Under the pieces are notes generated by a model that was given only the letters and a program-made list of their open reading frames with translations, did no database searches and was not told the DNA's origin. From the IMG/VR virus record IMGVR_UViG_3300037153_000545, positions 1 to 30,165 of that record: a stretch of 30,165 nt of DNA; one strand, 5' to 3'. This document shows, piece by piece, positions 381-30,165 of this stretch. Each line of letters opens with the position of its first letter. Position 1 is the first letter of the stretch. The translations under genes were made by a program, and so were the position numbers. The DNA comes from a virus.

Positions 381-386
381 GTGCTG

Positions 387-701
387 ATGGCTGCCCGACC
401 TCGACCGCTCCCGTCAATCCCACCCCCGCTCTCGGTGGCAATCGACCTCGAGCCTCTGGTTGACCAGGTCGTGGCGCGCCTACGGCCACTGCTGACCAAC
501 TCCGAGACACGACCCGCCAAGCGAGCCTTCCGCACGCCCGAGGTCGCCCAGCTGCTGTCAATCAGCGACTCTGAGGTTCGCGAGCTGGTCTCCCGCGGCG
601 AGCTCGACTCGATCACGATCGGGCGCATCCGCCTCGTGCCACTGTCGGCCATCGACGAGTTTCTGCAGCGCAAGCTCGCCGCGGCGCGAACCATCCAATA
701 G
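387..701 (+). CDS. xis: Excisionase-type MerR/HTH_17 DNA-binding protein
   Basis: The product is about 104 aa from ATG 387; an in-frame GTG at 381 would add two residues. The C-terminal half is a winged helix of the excisionase/HTH_17 type. It has the pattern RTPEVAQLLSISDSEVRELV, then a basic wing (SITIGRIRLVPLSAIDEFLQRK) that ends in the usual helix. The first 50 residues are proline-rich and then helical. Proteins of this fold bend DNA at attachment sites and bias integrase towards excision. The gene sits directly beside attP on the side opposite the integrase, as expected for a recombination directionality factor. Its 3' end is 10 bp from the first arm-type repeat. A transcriptional regulator of the same fold is the alternative. 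Confidence 0.7.
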   Translation: MAARPRPLPSIPPPLSVAIDLEPLVDQVVARLRPLLTNSETRPAKRAFRTPEVAQLLSISDSEVRELVSRGELDSITIGRIRLVPLSAIDEFLQRKLAAARTIQ

Positions 702-926: not shown

Positions 927-2138
927 TCAAAACGCTCCCATAGATGTACCCATAGATGTACCCAAACCTGCGAAGAACGCCGCCATTCGCGCCTTCGCGT
1001 CGTCGAGCATGGCGCTCTGGACGTGCGTGTAGCGCTCGGTCATCACCAGGGTCGAGTGTCCCATGATCGCCTGGACTGTCGGCAGCGGAATCCCCATCGC
1101 AATCAGAAACGTGCAGGCCGAATGCCGCAGATCGTGGACTCGCGTGTCGAGGTCGAGACCGGCACGCCCGAGCGACCGCTTCATAGCGTCCTGCACGCCA
1201 CGCTGGGCAACCACGTCGCCCACTTCGTTCGCGAATACGAAATCCTGTTCGACCCAGGCCTCGCGCGCGCGTTGACTCTCGAAGCGCTGGCGGTCGCGCT
1301 GCTGGCGTAGGACCTCGAGCGCCGCGGGCACCAGGGGCACGACGCGATCGCGTGACGGTCGAGACTTCGGGGGCACGAGATGCCACGGTTCGTTCGGCAG
1401 CTGCTCGAGGGTGTGCCTCACTTTCAGTTCGCCGCGGTGGTCGTTGACATCGCGCCAGCGGAGGGCCTGCGCCTCGCCGAGCCGCAAACCGGTCACGACC
1501 AGGAACGTCAACATCGGCCCATGCCGCTCGCTCACCGCGGCGGCCTGCAAGGCCTCGACCTGCTCGGGCTCAAGCGCCTTGCCGACCCGATTGTTGTCGG
1601 GCACGCTGATCTCGACGAGCTTGGCCACGTTGCGCGTGACGAGGCCCTGCTTGAGGGCTCGGCCGAGAGCAATCCGCAGCGTCGCGTTCACGCGCTGCAT
1701 GTTGGCCGGCGTTGCGCCGGCGGCAATCTTGTCGTCGTAGAACTGCTGAACGCGTTGGACCGCCAGCCGCGCCAGGGGCTCATCACCGAGCACAGGCTTG
1801 AGATGCACGCGGACGTGGACGTCGTAGCTGCGCCATGTGCCCCGCTTGGGCTTCCCGTGAAGCGATGCGACGCGGATCGATTCTATCCACCGATCGAGAA
1901 ACACACCGAGCGTGAGTTTTGCCGTCGGCGTCGGCTCGCCGTTGGCGATCGCTTGCAGCACCCTGTCGCGCAGTTGCTCGAGCTCGTGCGCCGACGTTTT
2001 GTGGGTGAGCGTGCGTTTGCTGCCGTCGGGCAGGGTGATGTTGAGCGTCCACCGCTGGCGTTTTTTGTCCCACCGTGGCGCGGTGCCACTGCCCTTCTCG
2101 CGGCGCGCCCCCTCGCCGGGTGCCTTACGTGCGGTCAC
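927..2138 (-). CDS. int: Tyrosine-family site-specific integrase
   Basis: The 403-aa protein has the usual three parts. The N-terminal arm-binding region (about 20-65) contains RWDKKRQRWTLNITLPDGS. A SAM-like core-binding domain spans about 75-175. The catalytic domain spans about 185-390. The catalytic residues are visible: R219 (TGLRLGEAQALRW), K258, H335 and R338 (HDLRHS), H361 (GHS) and nucleophile Y370 (ERYTH). The length is typical of phage integrases. It starts with GTG, and GTGA overlaps the stop of the Xre gene upstream, so the two are probably cotranscribed. Its 3' end is about 80 bp from the tRNA-like core and contains two arm-type repeats. It recombines attP with a host tRNA-Leu(UAA) gene. 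Confidence 0.97.
   Translation of the reverse strand: MTARKAPGEGARREKGSGTAPRWDKKRQRWTLNITLPDGSKRTLTHKTSAHELEQLRDRVLQAIANGEPTPTAKLTLGVFLDRWIESIRVASLHGKPKRGTWRSYDVHVRVHLKPVLGDEPLARLAVQRVQQFYDDKIAAGATPANMQRVNATLRIALGRALKQGLVTRNVAKLVEISVPDNNRVGKALEPEQVEALQAAAVSERHGPMLTFLVVTGLRLGEAQALRWRDVNDHRGELKVRHTLEQLPNEPWHLVPPKSRPSRDRVVPLVPAALEVLRQQRDRQRFESQRAREAWVEQDFVFANEVGDVVAQRGVQDAMKRSLGRAGLDLDTRVHDLRHSACTFLIAMGIPLPTVQAIMGHSTLVMTERYTHVQSAMLDDAKARMAAFFAGLGTSMGTSMGAF
937..960 (+). repeat. Tandem 12-bp repeats, probable arm-type sites inside the int 3' end
   Basis: Two exact tandem copies of CCCATAGATGTA match the pair at 711-734. They lie inside the integrase gene and encode its C-terminal repeat GTSMGTSMG, so coding sequence and presumed binding sites coincide. 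Confidence 0.65.
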
Positions 2139-2344
2139 GAGACTAACTCGACGTCGCCAATCAAGTCGGCAGGATCCACATTGAGCGCTCGCGCGATCTT
2201 CCGCAGTGTGCTGGGGCGAGCTGGGCGCAGGCCGCGCTCGATCTCGCTGAGCGAGCGCTGCGCGACACCCGAGAGTTTGGCCAGGTCATCCTGTGACAGC
2301 GCGCGCCGCTCGCGGATGGGCTTGAGGTTGGCCAACATTGGCAT
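2135..2344 (-). CDS. Xre/Cro-type HTH regulator
   Basis: The 69-aa protein is almost entirely one Xre helix-turn-helix domain. Residues 8-62 include RERRALSQDDLAKLSGVAQR followed by SLSEIERG and ALNVDPADLIG. It is the first gene of a two-gene operon with the integrase, which it overlaps by 4 bp. It is likely to control int or its own promoter. A TATGAT hexamer 6 nt before the ATG suggests a leaderless message. No dimerisation or cleavage domain is present, so it resembles Cro or a small antirepressor more than a CI-type repressor. Confidence 0.85.
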   Translation of the reverse strand: MPMLANLKPIRERRALSQDDLAKLSGVAQRSLSEIERGLRPARPSTLRKIARALNVDPADLIGDVELVS

Positions 2345-2551: not shown

Positions 2552-2881
2552 ATGGCTGAGACCCGAGTTGTTGAGGGGTACGTGATCCTGACGCTCGCGT
2601 TTCACCAGGAAGGTCGCCGCTGGCTCGGCGAGTGCGTCGAACTCGGCACAGCCACACACGGCGCGAATCTGCAGCAGACCCTGCATGAACTCAAGGAACT
2701 AGTGCTGCTGCACCTGAACGAGCTCGAGGATGTCGGTGAGCGGCCCAGATTCTTCGCCGAGCACGGCATCAAGCTGTATCCGGCGCAACCCCGCATGGTG
2801 CAGCTCAAGCTGCCAGTATCGGACGACAACCTGATCGTCGCCCAAGCCTGGCCCGTGCACGTGCCCGCACGCGCCGCGTGA
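2552..2881 (+). CDS. hicB: HicB-like antitoxin
   Basis: The 109-aa protein has the HicB partial-RNase-H-like fold signature in residues 8-60: beta strands VILTLAFHQEGRRWLGECVEL, then a Thr-rich turn and the helix QQTLHELKELVLLHLNEL. The C-terminal part (about 65-109) is not a recognisable RHH. HicB binds and blocks HicA and usually autoregulates the operon. The gene precedes hicA with 3 bp between them, the reverse of the usual toxin-first order. An upstream CATACT hexamer leaves only a 9-nt leader. A neutral UPF0150-type protein is possible, but the adjacent HicA supports a toxin-antitoxin pair. Confidence 0.8.
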   Translation: MAETRVVEGYVILTLAFHQEGRRWLGECVELGTATHGANLQQTLHELKELVLLHLNELEDVGERPRFFAEHGIKLYPAQPRMVQLKLPVSDDNLIVAQAWPVHVPARAA

Positions 2882-2884
2882 GCG

Positions 2885-3142
2885 GTGGCTGAGCGGCTGC
2901 CAGCGATCAACGGTCCACAGTTGATCCGCTTACTCGAGCGCGATGGTTGGCAAGCCGGACGACATACCACGCACGGCCAGGCTCTGCGAAAACGGATCGG
3001 TGACCGCACGAGGGTGACGACGATCCCGACGAAGCAGATGTCGTTGCCGTCGGGCACGCTCGCTAAAATTCTCGGGCCGCTGCAGACGGGAATTGGGCGT
3101 GAAGGACTGCGCGAGCTCATCGAGCGCTACGGCTTGCGCTGA
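2885..3142 (+). CDS. hicA: HicA-like mRNA interferase toxin
   Basis: The 85-aa protein starts with GTG 3 bp after hicB. It shows the HicA dsRBD-like pattern: helix SGxELIRLLERDGW-like (residues 10-22), then basic R-H-x-x-H (26-30) and strands ending in VTTIPTKQ, with the final helix SGTLAKILGPLQTGI. HicA cleaves mRNA using a conserved His in this region, and H27 or H30 is the candidate. The sequence GRHTTHG departs from the usual GSHH, so activity is less certain. It probably acts with the upstream HicB in lysogen stabilisation or anti-phage defence. Confidence 0.8.
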   Translation: MAERLPAINGPQLIRLLERDGWQAGRHTTHGQALRKRIGDRTRVTTIPTKQMSLPSGTLAKILGPLQTGIGREGLRELIERYGLR

Positions 3143-21412: not shown

Positions 21413-21652
21413 GTGTCGGAGAGCAGGCAGCAGAAGCAGTGGGCCAGGCTGAACGCGCATCCGCGCAGCGTTTCGTTCGACGAGTTGCGGCACCTGCTGG
21501 AACTCTCCGGGTGGACGCTGGTGCGGACCAGCGGCAGCCATCACACCTTTGAATCCGGCACCCAGCGACTGACGATTCCCTATCGTCGCCCGCACGTGCT
21601 GCCCATCTACGTTCGCCTGGTGCTCGCCGCCACCAACCCATCGAAGGAGTAA
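21413..21652 (+). CDS. hicA: HicA mRNA interferase toxin (second system)
   Basis: The 79-aa product has the HicA fold in residues 20-79: SFDELRHLLELSGWTLVRTS, then GSHHTFESG with the catalytic His (H43 or H44), and strands leading to LTIPYRRPHVLPIYVRLVL. The GSHH motif is intact, unlike the other HicA in this genome. The first 18 residues are an extra basic leader. The gene precedes hicB by 7 bp in the usual toxin-first order, and the start appears to be leaderless. It sits alone with its antitoxin between late and early operons on the opposite strand. Confidence 0.88.
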   Translation: MSESRQQKQWARLNAHPRSVSFDELRHLLELSGWTLVRTSGSHHTFESGTQRLTIPYRRPHVLPIYVRLVLAATNPSKE

Positions 21653-21659
21653 CCATCCC

Positions 21660-22094
21660 ATGAGCCCTCGCCTCAGTGCCACGGCTCGAGCGTCCAGCGT
21701 CGATCGTGATCCAGCACGACCGCCGGAGCCGGCCGTACTGGCCCGTGTCCACGCCATCATGCGCAAGCCGTATCACAAGACCATCGTCGGAGACATGGAT
21801 GAGGGATACCTCGGCATGGTCACGGAGCTCGACGGCTGCCTGACCGCGGGCGAGACCGAAGCCGAGACGCTCGAACTGCTCCGCGACGCCATGCAGTTGT
21901 GGCTGATTGTTGCCGTAGAGAGCGGTACCTCGATTCCGGAGCCCAGTCCGGCGGTGCCAGACGTGAGCGGCAAAATGCTGCTGCGCATGCCCAAGTCGCT
22001 GCACCGCGACCTGGCTGTGCAAGCCGAGCGCGAGGCTGTCAGCATCAACCAGCTGGCCGTGACGCTGATCGCACGGGGTCTGGCCCGCACCTAG
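21660..22094 (+). CDS. hicB: HicB antitoxin with C-terminal RHH domain (second system)
   Basis: The 144-aa product starts at ATG 21660, placed by an AAGGAG site about 10 nt upstream. Residues 1-33 are an Arg/Pro-rich leader. Residues 38-95 are the HicB domain (YHKTIVGDMDEGYLGMVTEL, GCLTAGETEAETLELLRDAM). Residues 105-144 are a ribbon-helix-helix/HicB DNA-binding domain (KMLLRMPKSLHRDLAVQAER, VSINQLAVTLIARGL). Such antitoxins neutralise HicA and repress their own promoter. The converging early operon ends 14 bp downstream. Confidence 0.9.
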   Translation: MSPRLSATARASSVDRDPARPPEPAVLARVHAIMRKPYHKTIVGDMDEGYLGMVTELDGCLTAGETEAETLELLRDAMQLWLIVAVESGTSIPEPSPAVPDVSGKMLLRMPKSLHRDLAVQAEREAVSINQLAVTLIARGLART

Positions 22095-29012: not shown

Positions 29013-29171
29013 CTAGGCGATCGCTTCGAGCTGTTGATCGAGAGCTTCGAGCGCCTTACGCAGAAGCACCGCGGCCTGGTCTCCCGGCGTACGTCGGTCT
29101 TCCGCGGCGCGTTTCCGCAACCGCTCGAAACTTTCCGGATCCAGCTTCACATAGAGACCCGTGTTGCTCAT
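29013..29171 (-). CDS. Ribbon-helix-helix (CopG/Arc-like) regulator
   Basis: The 52-aa product has the RHH layout: a short strand GLYVKLDPESFERLRKRAAE, a turn, then the second helix GDQAAVLLRKALEALDQQLE. Such proteins bind DNA as dimers of dimers. It is the first gene of the early operon, so it probably autoregulates it. A CATAGT hexamer (29184-29179, minus strand) lies 7 nt before the ATG, suggesting a leaderless start. The upstream in-frame extension is not supported. Confidence 0.8.
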   Translation of the reverse strand: MSNTGLYVKLDPESFERLRKRAAEDRRTPGDQAAVLLRKALEALDQQLEAIA

Positions 29172-29178
29172 GGCAGGC

Positions 29179-29184
29179 ACTATG
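29179..29184 (-). promoter_or_regulatory. Possible -10 box of the early operon, leaderless
   Basis: Minus-strand CATAGT stands 7 nt from the ATG of the RHH gene. No good -35 is seen. The interval 29172-29294 also has a GACAGG-TCAGC-CCTGTC dyad (29269-29285) just downstream of the HTH gene stop. That dyad may be a weak terminator or operator. Confidence 0.4.
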
Positions 29185-29268
29185 CACCCCGCTGACAGCC
29201 CGAGTAAATGCCAACGTGAGGACAGACAGCCGATGTGTCCGCTGAGTGTCGCCATGCATGACACCGAG

Positions 29269-29285
29269 GACAGGTCAGCCCTGTC
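29269..29285. repeat. 6-bp dyad between the HTH gene and the early operon
   Basis: GACAGG and CCTGTC are separated by 5 nt. On the minus strand the dyad lies just past the TAG of the HTH gene. Without a T-run it would be a poor intrinsic terminator, and an operator is equally possible. Confidence 0.35.
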
Positions 29286-29294
29286 ACATGGTGG

Positions 29295-29636
29295 CTATTG
29301 CTCGTGAGGCTCGCGTACCGCCAGCGTCCAAAATCGCAAAAATCCGTCCCAGCCAGGGATGCCGGCACGACTCAGCCAGCGACCGATGGTTCGGATGTTA
29401 CGTCCGAAGTAGCGCGCAGCATCATTCTCCCGTGGCGGCAGTTGTTCTGGCGGCAAGCCCGCTGTCCACTCACACAACTCGACCAGGAACTCAGATGTCG
29501 TAGACCAGGTCGCGATCGGGCTGGGGTGGCCGAGCCGATGGTTGCCCCGAATGGCGGACGCAAGTTGGTCGCGATCATCTGGCGACAACGAGCTCCGCTG
29601 GATTTCGTCGAGGATGCGCTGCGCCAAAGGATCCAT
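29295..29636 (-). CDS. HTH regulator, divergent partner of the 126-aa HTH protein
   Basis: The 113-aa product starts at ATG 29636 behind a GGGGAGG purine site. N-terminal helices (RILDEIQRSSLSPDDRDQLA, FLVELCEWTAGLPPEQL) precede a helix-turn-helix at about 72-91 (DAARYFGRNIRTIGRWLSRA), then GIPGWDGFLRFWTL. The HTH followed by a Pro-Trp stretch resembles the layout in the divergent protein that spans the genome ends. A GAAC-N4-GTTC dyad lies 27 bp upstream. It is likely one of the two switch regulators. The family is not recognised. Confidence 0.72.
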   Translation of the reverse strand: MDPLAQRILDEIQRSSLSPDDRDQLASAIRGNHRLGHPSPIATWSTTSEFLVELCEWTAGLPPEQLPPRENDAARYFGRNIRTIGRWLSRAGIPGWDGFLRFWTLAVREPHEQ

Positions 29637-29662
29637 GATCCTCCCCTTCGCCTCCCTAAAAT

Positions 29663-29680
29663 TTAGAACACTCGTTCTAA
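29663..29680. promoter_or_regulatory. LexA-like (SOS) box or repressor operator
   Basis: TTAGAAC-ACTC-GTTCTAA has 7-bp perfect arms and contains GAAC-N4-GTTC, the core of the LexA box used in Gram-positive and several other phyla. It lies 27 bp upstream of the minus-strand HTH gene. It may connect that gene to the host SOS response, or be the operator of a phage repressor. Confidence 0.55.
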
Positions 29681-29741
29681 GAATACTGGTCTGTCCTGGC
29701 TGCTTGCCAGTCGTGTCGTGCGAGCAGGAGCTTACTGCAAC

Positions 29742-29768
29742 CAGAACACAACCCTAACACGTGTTCTG
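29742..29768. repeat. 8-bp inverted repeat CAGAACAC ... GTGTTCTG
   Basis: CAGAACAC (29742-29749) and GTGTTCTG (29761-29768) are perfect inverted copies with an 11-nt spacer. The half-site AGAACAC is also in the dyad at 29663-29680, so both may bind the same protein. The right arm also forms the palindrome AACACGTGTT (29756-29765). Confidence 0.5.
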
Positions 29769-29874
29769 CCAAGGAAGGCGTCAAAGGTAGTATCTCGGAC
29801 ATATCACTGACCTACAGATGACATCTCCTGGCACAGCCGCCTGACAGACCGCCGATCCGTGGCGCAAGCGTGGC

Positions 29875-29880
29875 TATACT
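29875..29880 (+). promoter_or_regulatory. Likely -10 box for the plus-strand HTH gene
   Basis: TATACT is a good -10 match. Transcription would start near 29887, giving a leader of about 30 nt that contains AGGAGG (29889-29894) and a hairpin. No -35 match is clear, so an activator may be needed. Confidence 0.5.
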
Positions 29881-29895
29881 GCGCCACCAGGAGGA

Positions 29896-29914
29896 CGCGA
29901 CCACACCGGTCGCG
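29896..29914 (+). promoter_or_regulatory. Hairpin between ribosome site and start codon
   Basis: CGCGACC-ACACC-GGTCGCG forms a perfect 7-bp GC-rich stem with a 5-nt loop. It separates AGGAGG (29889-29894) from ATG 29918, which are otherwise 23 nt apart. When folded, the stem would bring them to within about 4 nt. It may therefore gate translation of the HTH protein, or serve as an operator. Confidence 0.5.
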
Positions 29915-29917
29915 CCA

Positions 29918-30165
29918 ATGTCAGCTCAGCGACGCAGTGTTTCGTATCGAACGCGCGAGCAGCTCGCCGAAGCGATGAGAGCCGCGATTCTCTCGGACGC
30001 CAGTGCCGCTAAACATGACGACATGGCCAGGGCAATCAATGTCGCGCCGCGGACGCTGTACCGCCTTCGAGAGAAGTTCAACGTGCCCTGGCCACCGTTC
30101 GACGATTGGGATGCGCTCCTCAGGATGGCTGGCGGGGGCGAGCAAGCCATAGCCGAGACGGTGCC
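29918..30165 (+). CDS. HTH DNA-binding regulator, N-terminal part (continues at base 1)
   Basis: This is the 5' part of the 126-aa HTH protein completed at 251. It encodes MSAQRRSVSYRTREQLAEAM, a helix, and the HTH (about residues 34-53) before running into the terminal overlap. ATG 29918 is the only reasonable start after the AGGAGG site. Here the recognition-helix codon is CGC (Arg), whereas the left copy of the overlap reads GGC (Gly). Confidence 0.78.
   Translation, partial: MSAQRRSVSYRTREQLAEAMRAAILSDASAAKHDDMARAINVAPRTLYRLREKFNVPWPPFDDWDALLRMAGGGEQAIAETV
30048..30165. repeat. Right copy of the terminal redundancy
   Basis: This duplicates bases 1-118 with a single difference (C at 30062 against G at 15). 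It marks the point at which the circle was opened. Confidence 0.9.

Follow-up and report, generated by a model that had tools for sequence, protein, structure and literature searches.

Genomic context of the switch region

The stretch of DNA analysed here, hereafter the window (30,165 nucleotides), is a single virus record holding a circular phage genome of ~30.0 kb with 63.6% GC. At its switch region, two genes for small HTH proteins are transcribed divergently from a 281-bp intergenic region that contains two dyads and a leader hairpin, as the original prediction had described. The leftward early operon opens with the gene for a 113-aa protein (29295–29636, minus strand), and a 126-aa protein is encoded on the plus strand from 29918. 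The window ends in a single 118-bp overlap (1–118 versus 30048–30165) with one mismatch, G at position 15 and C at position 30062, which is likely to be an assembly or strain difference. Because of this overlap the 126-aa gene crosses the join of the circle: its first part occupies 29918–30165 and its end lies within 1–251, of which 1–118 repeat 30048–30165, so that the reading frame goes on at 119–251. Codon 49 of this gene specifies Arg in the end copy and Gly in the start copy, and all relatives have Arg.

The genome also encodes a terminase, a portal protein, a RecT-like annealing protein, a replication protein, a tyrosine integrase (927–2138, minus strand; Pfam Phage_integrase 5e-31, phrog_1 2e-63) and an excisionase-like HTH protein (381–701, plus strand; TIGR01764 36.7 bits against a cut-off of 28.8, with HTH_17), whose gene follows the 126-aa gene in the same orientation. 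A small Cro/C1-type HTH protein (2135–2344, minus strand; HTH_3 1.5e-15) overlaps the start of the integrase gene. Beside the integrase gene, at about 798–872, a tRNA-Leu(UAA)-like 3′ half was read by eye; ARAGORN found no complete tRNA there, and the segment is likely to be the attP site. The integrase, the excisionase and this tRNA-like half together identify the phage as temperate.

The terminase shares ~51% identity with its counterparts in Gordonia and Mycobacterium phages, pointing to Actinobacteria, and the portal is ~51% identical to Firmicutes phage portals, pointing to Firmicutes; taken together, these relationships make a host of Gram-positive type likely, and that host is probably high-GC. 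A genome scan with the 126-aa profile returned no host match, and the tRNA-Leu-like attP sequence had no exact match in the genome collection. The first 25 kb of the window have no nucleotide relative among known phages and plasmids.

The two divergent HTH proteins

Both genes are genuine open reading frames that are kept in relatives. Scans of viral contigs recovered the 113-aa gene in nine further records, giving ten records in seven lineages with the window included, and each of the nine also carries a divergent homologue of the 126-aa gene. Across the seven lineages, homologues of the 113-aa protein are 53–89% identical to that of the window; the 126-aa protein evolves faster, with identity falling to about 30–41%. 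The module lies beside a tyrosine integrase in genomes G000 and G005 and beside a serine recombinase in G001 and G004. Among known phages and plasmids neither protein has relatives, the weak plasmid hits being unrelated.

It had been proposed that neither protein resembles CI, Cro or a serine-peptidase-fused repressor, and this agrees with our searches: the HTH_3 profile hit neither of the divergent proteins and no named family claims them, the plus-strand protein matching Xre-like-HTH PF20432 at 22.7 bits, under the cut-off of 25.8. The AlphaFold model of the 113-aa protein is all-helical (pLDDT 78), and the top six matches in a structural search were RpiR-family N-terminal domains, at Z scores of 4.5–6.0 that lie below the level at which chance is excluded. 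In the predicted fold a Gly-aromatic motif comes after the recognition helix and one last helix closes the domain, a possible likeness to the RpiR N-terminal HTH domain (HTH_6; NanR 4ivn, RccR 8k3b); the protein differs in lacking the SIS sugar-binding domain and any Pfam sequence match, and the best Z score is modest (6.0). HTH_6 was absent among the Pfam hits of six 113-aa homologues, and a sequence search of the 113-aa protein against solved structures gave no meaningful match. The next early gene (29013–29264) may encode a ribbon-helix-helix (CopG-like) protein, as judged by a weak RHH_5 match (E 0.063).

For the 126-aa protein, the AlphaFold model (pLDDT 70) combines an N-terminal HTH with a C-terminal beta-beta-alpha-beta domain, for which structural matches reached Z scores of up to 6.5, all below a trustworthy level; sequence searches against solved structures gave weak TetR-like HTH matches. 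A weak likeness to FlhF, in its N-terminal region, is seen at residues 99–125 (NCBIfam TIGR03499, E 0.0029, as measured with the homologue from L005).

The shared layout on which the two proteins had been proposed to be paralogues is present, as AARYFGRNIRTIGRW followed by IPGW and as MARAINVAPRTLYRL followed by VPWPP. BLASTP between the two proteins found nothing. Profile–profile alignment of the seven-lineage profiles with hhalign gave a probability of 94.2% (P 1.2e-7) over 33 columns, covering residues 68–101 of the 113-aa protein, and this probability climbed as lineages were added, from 27.6% with four sequences to 74.0% with six and 94.2% with seven. As controls, none of 200 column shuffles exceeded 8.4%, and the phage’s own Cro/C1 and excisionase proteins scored no higher than 14.9%. 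These results support common ancestry of the HTH and the Pro/Trp segment that follows it. The paralogue claim thus holds for this segment but not for the remainder of the proteins, and the structure predictions show an HTH in both models but differing N- and C-terminal architectures. Both proteins also match generic homeodomain-like HTH models weakly, so the link between them may reflect membership of one superfamily rather than a recent duplication.

Dyad 1, a putative LexA box

Dyad 1 (29663–29680; TTAGAACACTCGTTCTAA) is a perfect 7+4+7 palindrome with the core GAAC-N4-GTTC at 29666–29677. This core is the LexA motif of B. subtilis and M. tuberculosis and, by extension, of all Gram-positive bacteria (PMC3323433). 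The window contains one match to it (0.41 expected), and that match falls within the 281-bp switch. A box occupies the same place, 9–29 bp ahead of the 113-aa homologue's start codon, in 7/7 lineages and 10/10 records; twelve GAAC-N4-GTTC sites occur in the ten records, ten of them at this position, although these ten are not independent observations, the lineages being homologous. Each genome has the box once, except G002 and G009 with two copies.

The TAGAAC and GTTC halves are kept, and the N4 spacer varies (ACTC, ACAA, GTGC, ACAC, ATGC, ACTT), as does the DNA around the box; for G003, G004 and G006 the alignment of the intergenic DNA did not exceed that of the best shuffles. An A always flanks the core (TAGAAC), in contrast with the C of the Streptomyces motif, tCGAAC-N4-GNNCGa (PMC9380542). 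An A/T-flanked version, aGAACAaAcGTTCt, is found in an SPbeta promoter region bound by B. subtilis LexA at 3.9 nM (PMC8270828).

On the leftward side, a promoter scan found no consensus promoter; a candidate −10 element (TATTCT, 29680–29685, minus strand), read from the sequence, abuts dyad 1. No Peptidase_S24 (PF00717) gene was detected in any of the seven genomes (0/7, with 12/14 controls detected), so the SOS sensor that phages usually encode themselves is absent, and the phage itself carries no lexA gene. Dyad 1 is most simply read as a box for the LexA of the host, with the caveat that the consensus is a Gram-positive one and may not be that of this particular host. Against this, the box would be just as well conserved if it were the target of a phage protein that recognises the same sequence, for example the conserved 113-aa protein; the terminase and the portal point to Actinobacteria and Firmicutes respectively, with no host match found; and the invariant flanking A departs from the Streptomyces C.

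The original prediction had instead made the two dyads shared operators of the two HTH proteins, built on a common half-site AGAACAC. That half-site is not conserved as a shared unit: relatives keep TAGAAC-N4-GTTC in dyad 1, and dyad 2 reads AGAATGC in two lineages. The proposed operator role is likewise not supported, as dyad 1 matches the Gram-positive LexA box exactly and is conserved, and dyad 2 is restricted to some lineages. Where dyad 1 is kept, the start of the recognition helix varies in the 113-aa protein (GRNIR, GRTER, GRTTR, GCTGR or GCSAR) and also in the 126-aa protein.

Dyad 2, the rightward promoter and the leader hairpin

Dyad 2 (29742–29768; CAGAACAC-N11-GTGTTCTG) has 8-bp arms set 11 bp apart. 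It is kept only in the close relatives L005–L008 and is unrecognisable in L012 and L021. It matches only six to seven of the eight LexA core bases, and we rejected it as a canonical LexA box, sites with up to two mismatches being common in the window (nine found, 7.7 expected). It could possibly serve as a weak or half-site, non-canonical LexA box, or as a site for a phage protein.

Further to the right, TATACT (29875–29880, plus strand) forms part of a TATACT(G/T)CG sequence found in all seven lineages. It is probably the −10 element of the rightward promoter, as it is kept even in L047, where the overlapping frame differs. An upstream GTG at 29870 was considered as the start of the plus-strand gene and set aside: the frame is open in six lineages, but L047 reads other residues across the conserved TATACTGCG, for which reason we read the TATACTGCG block as promoter. 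A longer N-terminus for the 126-aa protein is rather unlikely.

Ahead of the start codon, a Shine-Dalgarno sequence (AGGAGG) is followed by a 7-bp leader hairpin (29889–29914 together, plus strand; hairpin 29896–29914). The hairpin folds with z = −4.0 in the window, and part of the Shine-Dalgarno sequence is paired within it in three genomes, those of the window, G001 and G003 (z −4.0 to −2.6); for G005 a similar stem without this pairing is predicted (z −1.2) and the other relatives have weak ones. It may possibly exert translational control over the 126-aa gene. A compensatory change from C-G to U-A is seen within 29889–29917 across the window, G001 and G003.

GACAG clusters around the module

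Three non-coding gaps were scanned for enriched k-mers: downstream of the 113-aa gene, between the two genes and downstream of the 126-aa gene. GACAG was the most enriched 5-mer of these gaps in G000, G001 and G003 and the second most enriched in G005, and none of 400 random placements per genome matched the best k-mer signal in any of these four. In G004 seven of 400 placements did so, and in G006 the GACAG signal was not significant against random placements. In all, GACAG clusters surround the module in five lineages. Copies of GACATTC occur in the same gaps of G006, which is suggestive only.

In the window, five copies lie downstream of the minus-strand gene (29194–29285; copies at 29194, 29221, 29225, 29269 and 29281), two between the genes (29691–29847; 29691 and 29843) and three downstream of the plus-strand gene (265–315; 265, 272 and 311). 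From this distribution, GACAG appears a better candidate than either dyad for the operator of a phage protein, and is our best candidate for that role. One of the strongest arrays is that of G001, which has no clear Cro/C1-type gene, and this favours the 126-aa or the 113-aa protein as the putative GACAG ligand.

Proposed mechanism and alternatives

We consider it fairly probable that the leftward early promoter is under repression by host LexA, with a phage HTH protein working through GACAG. The region would then be the genetic switch of a temperate phage in a Gram-positive host. The leftward promoter would drive the early lytic operon, with the 113-aa HTH gene first, and host LexA bound to dyad 1 would overlap the start region of that promoter and block it. 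After DNA damage, RecA-driven cleavage of LexA would lift the block and the prophage would be induced. The rightward TATACT promoter would express the 126-aa HTH protein as the phage’s own regulator, and either this protein or the related minus-strand HTH protein would act via the GACAG sites downstream of and between the two genes. The gene layout, the conservation of the box, the clustering of GACAG, the shared HTH segment and the S24 result (0/7) are read directly from the sequences; from them we infer LexA occupancy, repression, SOS induction and the identity of the GACAG-binding protein.

A more ambitious version of this scheme, which we hold only tentatively and think somewhat doubtful, is two-input immunity: host LexA would act at a single SOS box and a regulator from the phage HTH pair through GACAG arrays bracketing both genes. 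The regulators would be diverged HTH duplicates, immunity specificity would depend on the 126-aa protein with its faster evolution, and the LexA box would stay fixed across lineages and integrase types.

The strongest rival assigns GACAG to the Cro/C1-type protein (2135–2344) as immunity repressor, with both divergent promoters lytic, the left one serving the early operon and the right one the 126-aa protein and the excisionase, and it is compatible with LexA at dyad 1. The HTH_3 match of this protein, the presence of homologues close to the switch of G003, G005 and G006, and the position of the excisionase gene after the 126-aa gene on the plus strand all speak for it. However, the gene lies about 2.5 kb away from the switch, and by similarity no clear Cro/C1-type protein was found in G001 or G002, despite the strong GACAG array of G001; in the L010 and L009 genomes, the 2135–2344 protein likewise had no similarity match. 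We regard this explanation as unlikely.

Lower still stands an antirepressor role for the 113-aa protein, comparable to that of coliphage 186 Tum or N15 AntC: LexA would act only on the 113-aa gene, and the protein made on SOS induction would inactivate a separate repressor. The 113-aa gene is the first of its operon and lies directly under the SOS box, and LexA-controlled antirepressors are known (cited in PMC4551915), but the predicted HTH and RpiR-like fold would suggest DNA binding rather than protein antagonism and the early genes downstream are on the same strand, so this seems to us improbable.

The weakest is the original model, in which LexA is uninvolved and the two related HTH proteins would bind both dyads and set opposite transcription states like CI and Cro; the related HTH segments, the joint retention of the 113-aa protein and dyad 1 in all lineages and the loss of dyad 2 from all but the lineages with a close relative of the 126-aa protein fit this model, but dyad 1 matches a known foreign consensus base for base, the recognition-helix starts vary where the box stays and the AGAACAC half-site is not conserved, which leaves it very unlikely.

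Comparison with known systems

With host LexA on the leftward promoter, the region would be a variant of an SOS-controlled phage switch already known in kind. In GIL01 of Bacillus thuringiensis, host LexA represses promoter P1 via dinBox1, together with gp7 via the half-site-like dinBox1b (PMC4551915). The likeness, as proposed here, lies in LexA acting directly on an early phage promoter, at a canonical box near the start site accompanied by a weaker, non-canonical site in which a single half-site can be recognised (dyad 2 is the candidate in the present phage), and in LexA serving as the SOS sensor. The differences are that GIL01 is an unintegrated tectivirus whose gp7 does not bind DNA, whereas the present phage carries GACAG arrays together with genes for an integrase and two HTH proteins, and its LexA binding is predicted. 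SPbeta shares boxes of the AGAAC-N4-GTTCT type at divergent phage genes in a Gram-positive host, for example at the yolC/yolD promoters, where LexA binds in vitro at 3.9 nM (PMC8270828), but its boxes number seven and LexA by itself does not silence it, as against one box per genome in most of our records. Lambda CI/Cro offers the same arrangement of divergent promoters, its regulators and their operators being placed where the early genes meet those for lysogeny; here, by contrast, there is no S24 peptidase repressor, neither divergent gene has a clear Cro/C1 HTH, and the SOS link would be LexA itself.

If true, the proposed mechanism would add uncultured phages with tyrosine or serine integrases to the few in which a lytic promoter lies directly under host LexA, and would provide reporters for the SOS induction of environmental prophages. 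For the study of phage immunity, the analysis names two unannotated HTH protein families and offers a repeated candidate operator, GACAG.

Elsewhere in the genome, a HicA/HicB-like toxin–antitoxin pair lies at 21413–22094 (HicB family 9e-10). Another HicA-like gene, with a weaker match, is found at 2885–3142 and is accompanied by an upstream partner ORF (2552–3142 region).
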